Shown here piece after piece: positions 17,366 to 19,649 of a stretch of 64,000 bases of DNA. The notes beneath the pieces are model-generated. The model was not told the DNA's origin. It saw only the letters and a list, made by a program, of their open reading frames with translations, and did no database searches. Position 1 is the first letter of the stretch. Each line of letters begins with the position of its first letter. The position numbers and the translations under genes were made by a program. Where the stretch lies: positions 4,383,001 to 4,447,000 of the forward strand of contig NZ_CP118225.1 of assembly GCF_028768465.1 (NCBI RefSeq), in the 5' to 3' direction. The DNA comes from Rhodopirellula sp. P2. GTDB lineage: Bacteria; Planctomycetota; Planctomycetia; Pirellulales; Pirellulaceae.

Positions 17366-17668
17366 TCACTCCGAGTCGAGGGGCTCGGACTTGATTTGAG
17401 CAATGATTTCGCGAGCCTTGGCGGCATCACGCTCGAATGTTTTGACTTGCACCCATCCCGGGGCTTCGGCGGCGAATCCAGCGGTGAAGCCACCAACGGC
17501 AACGGCTCGGATACCCACGTCCGAAAGGATATTGACCAGAACTGCAGCAGCAGGTTCAGTCGGACGTTCGGCCACGACAACCAGCGTTGCATCGTCGTCC
17601 GCGGAAGGTGATGTTCCGCTGGGGGAAGGAGGCCCTTCCGGTGGGATCGATTGAGTCATTGGTTTCAT
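17366..17668 (-). CDS. DUF2007-type small protein
   Basis: The 100-residue protein has a Pro/Ser-rich N-terminal 30 residues and then a compact beta-alpha-beta-beta fold: ATLVVVAERPTEPAAAVLVN, SDVGIRAVAVGG, GWVQVKTFERDAAKAREII. That is the pattern of DUF2007, a putative signal-transducing domain that often occurs as a small stand-alone protein. It is cytosolic. Starts at 17668 or 17659 (MTQS) are both possible. It lies immediately upstream of the DUF4832-like gene and may be co-transcribed. Function unknown. Confidence 0.72.
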   Translation of the reverse strand: MKPMTQSIPPEGPPSPSGTSPSADDDATLVVVAERPTEPAAAVLVNILSDVGIRAVAVGGFTAGFAAEAPGWVQVKTFERDAAKAREIIAQIKSEPLDSE

Positions 17669-17937: not shown

Positions 17938-18921
17938 ATGAGCAATGAATCAACCATCATTCTGGCTGGTACCGACAACGACATCCCGTCGCCTCCGCCC
18001 CTGGGGCTGAAGCGATACACCGGACTTCGTGAGATGGCGCGTGGCGCCACGGCGGTTTTGCAGGCCGGGGTCGATTCGGTCATTGGCCGGACGGTGGCAA
18101 TCAAGAAGCTGTTGCCGGAGATTCGGACGGATCGCTACGAGCGTCGGCGGTTGCTGCGTGAGGCTCGTGTCACGGCTCAATTGCAGCACCCCAACACGGT
18201 TCCGGTTTACGAGATTGGGGATGATGATATTGAAGGCGTTTACTTCACGATGAAGCGGATCTCGGGAGAGAATCTGTTTGAATCGTTGAAACGAATCGCT
18301 CGCAAGGATGAACACGCCGTTGCTGCATTCCCGCTGCAACGCCGTTTGGAAATTGTCGCGGATGCTTGTCAGGCACTGGCCTACGCTCACGCTCGTGGGG
18401 TGATTCACCGCGACGTCAAACCTGAAAACATTTGGGTGGGCAACTTTGGCGAAGTCATCTTGCTGGATTGGGGCGTGGCCAAGGTGTGGGGGCACTCCGA
18501 TGACGCTCAGGTACTGCATCGTCAACAAATGCAGCCCGATCACGAGACCAAGACCGAAACCCAGCTTCAGACCTTGACCGGTGGCGGCCAACGCCCCGGC
18601 ACGCCGCTGTACATGTCGCCCGAGCAAGTCAACGGGAACCGTGGCATCGATGAACGAACGGATATCTTCAGCGCTGGTGTGGTGTTGTATGAGTCGTTGG
18701 CGATTCGAGAGCCCTTCCGTGGTCGAACGATTGACGAAACGTTCGACAACATCAAGCATGCGGATGTCCCGCCACCGAGCGAAAAGTCGCCACAGTACGG
18801 GATTCCAAAAGAAGTCGACGCGGTGGTCATGAAGGCAATCGCGAAACGCCCCGCCGATCGTTACCAATCCATGCGTGAATTGATCGCGGACATCCGAGCG
18901 TTGACCGTCGCGGTGCCGTGA
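17938..18921 (+). CDS. Ser/Thr protein kinase (Hanks type)
   Basis: The 327-residue protein is little more than a kinase domain, with no membrane span. Visible elements: catalytic-site lysine in TVAIKKLLPE, alpha-C glutamate in LLREARVTAQL, the HRD loop as VIHRDVKPENIW, the metal motif as LLDWGVAKVWG (DWG instead of DFG, common in planctomycetes), and the activation end GTPLYMSPEQVNG. A short insert with HRQQMQPDHETKTETQ lies between DWG and the APE-like SPE. All catalytic residues appear intact, so it should be active. Its TGA overlaps the GTG of the next gene (GTGA), coupling it to a GyrB-like TOPRIM protein. Confidence 0.92.
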   Translation: MSNESTIILAGTDNDIPSPPPLGLKRYTGLREMARGATAVLQAGVDSVIGRTVAIKKLLPEIRTDRYERRRLLREARVTAQLQHPNTVPVYEIGDDDIEGVYFTMKRISGENLFESLKRIARKDEHAVAAFPLQRRLEIVADACQALAYAHARGVIHRDVKPENIWVGNFGEVILLDWGVAKVWGHSDDAQVLHRQQMQPDHETKTETQLQTLTGGGQRPGTPLYMSPEQVNGNRGIDERTDIFSAGVVLYESLAIREPFRGRTIDETFDNIKHADVPPPSEKSPQYGIPKEVDAVVMKAIAKRPADRYQSMRELIADIRALTVAVP

Positions 18922-19649
18922 GCGGACCGTACTTTGCCCCCTACGGCAAAGCCCCGGTGCACTATCCAATCGACGATCCTGTGCGGACGGGAGTCACACC
19001 GGACCAAACGGAGTTGCTGATTGTCGAAGGTGACAGCGCGGCGAGATCGGTCAACCAAGTTCGTGATCCAACCCGGCAATCGATCTTGGCGTTGCAAGGC
19101 AAGCCCATGAACGTTGCCAAAGCCACGCCGACGGTCGCACTCCGCAACGAGGTTTTGACGCGTTTCGCGTCGACCGTGTTGGACCGACAAATTTCAGCGG
19201 GCGAAGATTGGATCGGGGCATTGCGATCGGCTGAGACTTGCCGCTACGCGAGGTTGGTGGTGCTGATGGATCCCGATGCCGATGGCATTCATTGCGGCGT
19301 CTTGGTGCTGGGGTTCTTGCTTCGGTACGCCCCCAAGATGTTCGACGAACAGCGAGTCAGTGTGGTTCGTCCGCCGATGTTCTTGTTTCGGATCCGCGGA
19401 AGCGATTCGGGAGACGCGGCCGGGCAGGATCGAACCTTGGTGGCTTCCAACCCGGACCACGCTCAGCGGATGGAGGCCAAGTTGGCGGCAGCGGGTGTGT
19501 TCGACTACGAGCGATTTCGGCACCGAGGATTGGGCAGCATTCCACCGGAAGTCTTGCGAGCCTGTTGCGTGGATCCTGGTACCCGCGCGGCGGATCAGAT
19601 GAGCCGAGAGGAAGCCGCTGCTGCGGTGCGCTTATTCAGCGGAGGATGA
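18918..19649 (+). CDS. stand-alone GyrB/ParE-type TOPRIM protein
   Basis: This 243-residue protein matches the C-terminal half of GyrB only. TELLIVEGDSAARSVNQVRD carries the EGDSA glutamate, LALQGKPMNVAKA matches the GK-x-x-N block, and LVVLMDPDADGIH carries the DxDxDG metal triad. VRPPMFLFRI and, near the end, RHRGLGSIPPEVLRACCVDP match the GyrB PP-L-Y and KGLGEM regions. The GHKL ATPase and transducer domains are absent: only 35 residues precede the motif block. The GTG start overlaps the kinase stop. It cannot be a complete gyrase subunit; it may bind DNA, cleave with a partner, or be a kinase substrate. Confidence 0.85.
   Translation: MSGPYFAPYGKAPVHYPIDDPVRTGVTPDQTELLIVEGDSAARSVNQVRDPTRQSILALQGKPMNVAKATPTVALRNEVLTRFASTVLDRQISAGEDWIGALRSAETCRYARLVVLMDPDADGIHCGVLVLGFLLRYAPKMFDEQRVSVVRPPMFLFRIRGSDSGDAAGQDRTLVASNPDHAQRMEAKLAAAGVFDYERFRHRGLGSIPPEVLRACCVDPGTRAADQMSREEAAAAVRLFSGG

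Follow-up and report, generated by a model that had tools for sequence, protein, structure and literature searches.

Our results reveal a free-standing family of topoisomerase-like proteins, described here from a stretch of 64,000 nucleotides of the planctomycete Rhodopirellula sp. P2 (the window; positions 4383001-4447000 of a contig of 7,291,416 bases). The protein in question, 243 amino acids (aa) long and read from a GTG start on the plus strand (18918..19649), consists of a GyrB/ParE-type TOPRIM domain and Tail, as judged by its open reading frame (ORF), Pfam, and fold. It is a member of a separate conserved family and not a decayed gyrB, because it falls on its own branch (SH-aLRT 100), keeps a nearly invariant magnesium site, has a low ratio of nonsynonymous to synonymous substitution (dN/dS), and is spread over genera. 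On the same strand lies the gene for a PknB-like Ser/Thr kinase of 327 aa (17938..18921; ATG start, ORF and Pkinase domain), and the TOPRIM gene starts inside the kinase stop, in a 4-base GTGA overlap visible in the sequence (18918..18921, plus strand). This arrangement, first read from the sequence alone in a first-pass annotation, is confirmed as real. The pair goes beyond chance, given 661 protein matches and the recurrence of the coupled pair in all 13 genomes of the window's genus.

The 243-aa protein has the cleavage half of a topoisomerase B subunit. Toprim is the only Pfam domain over its cut-off (42.8 bits, 5.9e-11); there is no HATPase or DNA_gyraseB (PF00204) match, and residues 201-241 match DNA_gyraseB_C below threshold (15.3 bits versus a cut-off of 29.8). 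The two best NCBIfam models of GyrB align with the protein at model positions 411-615 of 639-641 alone, which is their C-terminal half, with scores far below cut-off. These matches bear out the early claim that the GHKL ATPase and transducer are absent. Gyrase and topoisomerase IV B subunits carry those two parts in one protein, together with a TOPRIM domain that has an E and DxD metal site on the GyrB fold; the window protein has the second set of features and lacks the first. No model specific to a stand-alone TOPRIM family was among the Pfam or NCBIfam matches. When the predicted structure was compared with known folds, all 50 Foldseek rows and all 50 VIA-align rows shown were type IIA topoisomerases, the gyrase-YacG structure 4tma being among the Foldseek rows. 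In the prediction, confidence (pLDDT) is below 50 at residues 1-7, and the modeled fold stops at residue 654 in Mycobacterium tuberculosis GyrB numbering.

The three GyrB/ParE motifs named in the first-pass annotation are present, all on the plus strand. EGDSA occupies residues 37-41 (19026..19040), and alignment places E37 at E459 of M. tuberculosis GyrB (numbering of PMC2923608). QGKPMN spans residues 60-65 (19095..19112), with Q60 at the position of M. tuberculosis R482. DPDADGIH, aligned with GyrB, spans residues 118-125 (19269..19292), and its D118 and D120 correspond to the Mg-site residues D532 and D534 in the same numbering (PMC2923608). Across 258 rows of the family alignment, E37 is kept in 257 (the remaining row has a gap) and Q60 in 257, while K62, P63, N65, D118, P119, D120, D122, G123, and H125 are kept in all. 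The block annotated as KGLGEM-like does correspond to KGLGEM by alignment (RGLGS, residues 203-207, 19524..19538, within RGLGSIPPE at residues 203-211), but the K of GyrB is R203 here and the final ~20-25 residues of GyrB are missing. Two cysteines also mark the family: C126 occurs in 216 rows, C217 in 247, and both in 205. The first position is I in 35 of 35 full-length rows, and the second is T in the GyrB and ParE of the window genome. A metal, redox, or structural pair is possible. The protein begins with an N-terminal extension (residues 1-27, 18918..18998, plus strand) that holds a YGKxPVHYP-like stretch in relatives of the window's genus.

How far does the family extend? A search with the single protein returned the 661 matches at E<=1e-3, with lengths 0.55-1.75 of the query, so that pieces of GyrB/ParE may be included; among the matches listed (the best 120 of 661) were records from Planctomycetota, Steroidobacteraceae, Burkholderiaceae, Rubrivivax, and Alphaproteobacteria. 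Of 8000 candidates scored in a profile search, 3554 matched, again possibly including pieces of full-length genes. Within the window's bacterial family, scoring up to 12 candidates per genome, we found the TOPRIM gene in 71 of 241 genomes and 11 of 68 genera, in frames of 201-386 aa and at E<=1e-54, a cut to be set against 4e-53 for the best full-length gene among the phylum-wide matches listed. That phylum-wide search (392 genomes, at most 7 candidates each) gave no further clear stand-alone member among the matches listed, leaving aside four whose frames measure 301-403 aa (G377, G396, G216, and G342); of these, G396 joined the tree as L083, one of the full-length rows. A DNA pattern, QGKPxN, run across 294 genomes was too unspecific and was not used.

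The tree comprised 74 rows, of which 39 were stand-alone (28 of the 71 loci and 11 of 200 proteins) and 35 were GyrB/ParE (of 58 segments). A single branch parts the two sets, with SH-aLRT 100 and a total length of 1.57 across the midpoint root, although the tree comes from a quick search and branch support is to be read with care. Selection on the TOPRIM gene was estimated in eight within-subgroup pairs with dS up to 1.55 (the window with L122, L123, L124, and L198; L198-L123; L198-L124; L123-L124; and L035-L036), where dN/dS was 0.055-0.137. Two pairs of larger dS gave 0.080 and 0.096. Over the same eight pairs the kinase gave 0.016-0.068; of the two genes, the TOPRIM gene is the faster-evolving one.

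We saw neither an A subunit nor a transducer piece reserved for the TOPRIM protein in the 17 TOPRIM-bearing genomes scanned, where lone GHKL domains were not searched. The window genome has two GyrA-like genes (PF00521) and two PF00204 genes, each of the four in a long frame; the two with PF00204, of 902 and 650 aa, lie away from the locus and are gyrB and parE-like, and no GyrA-like gene adjoins the TOPRIM gene in the window. A GyrA-like gene was over the cut-off in 17 of the 17 genomes and a second one in 14; one more had a partial second PF00521 match below cut-off in a fragmented assembly. PF00204 gave 32 matches (15 genomes with two, two with one), in frames of at least 639 aa. A split gyrase or orphan A subunit was considered, and none was found in the PF00521 and PF00204 scans of these genomes. 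Two genomes of one genus (code g11; G010 and G074) have the TOPRIM protein and one GyrA-like and one GyrB-like gene each, with no topoisomerase IV found.

We tentatively propose, at somewhat less than an even chance, that the protein serves as a TOPRIM subunit without an ATPase, docking on GyrA or ParC, and supports ATP-independent cleavage, nicking, or relaxation, or else competes with the motor subunit. It would be a B subunit of the type IIA kind that naturally lacks the motor and acts in trans. The metal site and the DNA-contact motifs of the GyrB/ParE TOPRIM and Tail are retained. Specifically, the protein would take the place of the GyrB/ParE TOPRIM domain on the GyrA or ParC breakage-reunion dimer and supply the Mg ions for tyrosine-mediated DNA cleavage. 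The outcome could be a cleavage, nicking, or relaxation complex that works without ATP, or, through competition, less of the full ATP-driven enzyme. Docking, biochemical output, and cellular role are what we infer here. Because the window protein is nearly a natural equivalent of TopBK, a subunit acting in trans without ATP is the most parsimonious reading. According to PMC2923608, TopBK of M. tuberculosis (residues 448-654) together with GyrA or its core makes DNA breaks with moxifloxacin and shows some nicking, and, according to PMC7897471, Escherichia coli GyrA with GyrB47 is capable of ATP-free relaxation; both fragments thus act with GyrA minus the ATPase. TopBK, GyrB47, and ParE30 share with the window protein the fold, nearly the same extent, the E-DxD site, GK..N, and DG.H. 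Those three are engineered fragments, however, whereas the window protein is encoded by a natural gene, falls on a branch apart, has Q60, P63, P119, C217, and R203, and lacks the C-terminal end. Phage T4 topoisomerase (gp39, gp60, and gp52) likewise splits B-subunit functions over polypeptides (PMC2988022). The other part is encoded there by a gene of its own, but the 17 genomes contained no short transducer-bearing gene, lone GHKL domains aside from that search.

Several observations weigh against this proposal. The C-terminal end of GyrB is gone. Among 52 columns at least 90% conserved in full-length rows, 18 stay at or above 90% in stand-alone rows; the 34 others fall below it, 21 with the same commonest residue and 13 with another, and the last group includes G42, G43, A45, E79, A119P, and I126C. 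Q60, P63, R203, and P119 are newly fixed in the stand-alone family. Q60 replaces the R or K (28 and 7 of 35 rows, respectively) found in full-length proteins at a quinolone-pocket position near the cleavage site (PMC2923608), and C217 (247 of 258) replaces the T of the window genome's GyrB and ParE; because of these two changes, the interface with GyrA may have been given up in this family. The new fixed residues and the two cysteines may point to an altered surface or to another kind of chemistry, as in Toprim effectors that cut alone. Between subgroups, furthermore, five pairs gave a dN/dS of 0.235-0.347, at dS of 1.5-2.0 near saturation. Finally, the neighbors of the TOPRIM gene vary from genus to genus, and gene context therefore lends no support to a topoisomerase role.

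The principal alternative, which we regard as distinctly less probable, is a metal-dependent nuclease or nickase that works without GyrA, in the manner of the Toprim domains of OLD, Gabija, or Retron-Eco2. Conservation of the three acidic positions and of K62 (257-258 of 258 rows), the lack of a dedicated partner gene, and the absence of the near-invariant C126 and C217 from the full-length proteins compared would all suit such an enzyme. So would a plasmid-borne member in Thiodictyon that follows an RNB ribonuclease gene by 30 bp, the next gene upstream of the latter encoding an ATP-dependent helicase. In addition, OLD, Gabija GajA, and Retron-Eco2 use TOPRIM outside topoisomerases as a nuclease, and Toprim domains of other kinds, when isolated, cleave RNA or DNA unaided (PMC10568477 and PMC12405507). 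Those effectors are linked to an ATPase, a helicase, or a reverse transcriptase, however, and none of these lies beside the window gene; nor were an ABC ATPase, a UvrD-like helicase, or a reverse transcriptase found among 20 annotated neighbors in 10 other loci. The best fold matches of the window protein are instead type IIA enzymes, although the absence of OLD folds from the 50 Foldseek and 50 VIA-align rows shown does not exclude them, and PADLOC had no match for the TOPRIM protein. GyrB-type TOPRIM domains are not known to carry the second-metal residues and the lysine given for Eco2 and OLD.

Quite unlikely, in our view, is a catalytically idle decoy that sits on GyrA/ParC or on the DNA cleavage site and damps gyrase or topoisomerase IV. 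The motor parts and the C-terminal end are missing, and small gyrase inhibitors are known (compare the gyrase-YacG structure, 4tma, among the Foldseek rows). A pure decoy would have no use for a metal site kept intact, but E37, D118, D120, and D122 persist in 257-258 of the 258 rows. Even less can be said for a remnant of a broken gyrB or parE. Although the C-terminal half alone is present, as such a remnant would have it, the separate branch, the dN/dS of 0.055-0.137 in the eight close pairs, the 258 different rows that keep the site, and the full-length gyrB and parE-like genes that the genome carries at other places make this highly improbable. The gyrB decay that the first-pass annotation named as the alternative, like a split gyrB, is also disfavored by the finding of PF00204 only in frames of at least 639 aa in the 17 genomes (lone GHKL domains not searched).

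The kinase presents a different pattern. Its Pkinase domain is well over the cut-off (119.3 bits, 2.5e-34, against 31.7 bits in Pfam), and its translation reads VAIKK, HRDVKPEN, DWG, and MSPEQ, giving the Lys, HRD, and D-x-G residues of a Ser/Thr kinase. Many PD-T4-6 defense-kinase models match it (best 1.5e-66), which we presume to be expected of most PknB-like kinases. With PknB-like bacterial Ser/Thr kinases it shares the domain over the Pfam cut-off, but it is short, has little outside that domain, and is TOPRIM-coupled in one lineage only. Within the window's genus the pair occurs in 13 of 13 genomes and so is not limited to one strain, as it would be under the refuting outcome named beforehand; 12 have the 4-base overlap and one, with the start used, a 12-base gap. 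The kinase ortholog is 94-99% identical in five of the other genomes and 74-75% in the other seven. Across seven loci of the genus (~5 kb compared), the genes beyond the pair and a small ORF fall into three arrangements, so the pair has outlived rearrangement. That ORF, divergent and of 100 aa, lies upstream of the kinase (17366..17668, minus strand, from the ORF list); a similar one is present in 5 of 6 relatives compared (6 of 7 loci with the window), with no Pfam match.

Adjacency, whose conservation across genera would by the first-pass annotation have supported a system, is conserved inside the window's genus and not outside it, where 0 of 58 other TOPRIM-bearing family genomes have the kinase ortholog nearby (stretches of 3-18 kb, several ended by contig ends). 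We surveyed the kinase (at least 55% identity over nearly the whole length, at most 22 candidates scored per genome) and found it in 33 of 100 family genomes, 12 with the TOPRIM gene and 21 without; 5 of the 17 TOPRIM-bearing genomes lack a close ortholog. A general kinase-TOPRIM system is not supported by these counts. Some other kinase is near the TOPRIM gene in 5 of the 58. In three of them (genus code g14) it lies upstream, is 823 and 853 aa where whole, and is 31-32% identical to the window kinase, which we treat as coincidence; the L038 kinase comes after a 202-aa ORF. In the two further genomes another kinase lies 1.3-1.8 kb downstream. Near 19 kinase loci of other genomes, an asparagine-synthase-like ORF was seen at 9 and a glutamine-synthetase-like ORF at 8 or more, one of each confirmed by Pfam. 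Elsewhere the window genome encodes another kinase that shares 63% identity with the one in the window (G000:C1:4156477-4157472), and the surrounding 14 kb gave no TOPRIM match.

In one genome (G037; locus L097, G037:C6:460000-473000) a full-length parE is followed, after 45 bp and on the same strand, by the kinase ortholog, so the same kinase adjoins a type IIA B-subunit domain in two lineages. This, the 13 genomes with 12 overlaps, and a pair kept through three outer arrangements would fit a dedicated system of the two proteins, with phosphorylation as the switch of the TOPRIM protein. Against it stand the 0 of 58, the 5 of 17 without a close ortholog, the 21 of 33 kinase genomes without a TOPRIM gene, the faster evolution of the TOPRIM gene, and the lack of the parE neighbor in both genus mates of G037, and we think it unlikely. 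The kinase is more probably a lineage-specific add-on: it stands apart elsewhere, and the lineage of the window is where the TOPRIM gene became translationally coupled to it. Kinase control of the amount or activity of the TOPRIM protein may follow. The fuller picture, in which the small TOPRIM subunit swaps for GyrB/ParE to give regulated ATP-independent relaxation or nicking and the cotranslated kinase sets the timing in Rhodopirellula-like bacteria, is doubtful as a whole.

Other surroundings of the family are diverse. In the window the neighbors of the TOPRIM gene are the kinase and an alpha/beta hydrolase. At L042 (genus code g37) a carbon-nitrogen hydrolase gene (Pfam) precedes the TOPRIM gene on the same strand, and a similar ORF is again upstream in several g37 genomes. 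An M41-like peptidase ORF adjoins the TOPRIM gene in two genera (L043, 162 aa and just under the Pfam cut-off; L047, 175 aa and over it). Of 173 plasmid records matched, two were examined, and contexts outside planctomycetes rest on one plasmid, pTs417 of Candidatus Thiodictyon syntrophicum, whose member (L055:11992-12672) has the RNB gene 30 bp before it, the helicase gene two genes upstream, and PRTRC plasmid genes in the region. A phage or defense origin of the TOPRIM gene is not supported. Viral contigs scanned with the family alignment yielded no confirmed relative, and the PHROGs matches were topoisomerase II families. A search of phage records gave 1870 matches, in the best 25 of which, without annotation, stand-alone and full-length proteins are indistinguishable.

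As the first-pass annotation had supposed, we found no description of this pair among the open-access papers listed, with subscription papers mostly outside that search. Nor did the papers listed yield a description of stand-alone or orphan TOPRIM proteins, of ATPase-less GyrB-like proteins, or of planctomycete gyrase paralogs, and the stand-alone family is apparently unstudied. The ATPase gate is held to be indispensable to type IIA topoisomerases inside cells. That a gene for nothing but the TOPRIM half is conserved in many genera suggests a separate cellular use of the cleavage half, much as biochemists use their fragments. The translational coupling of this gene to a kinase in one lineage marks a possible control point of planctomycete DNA topology.
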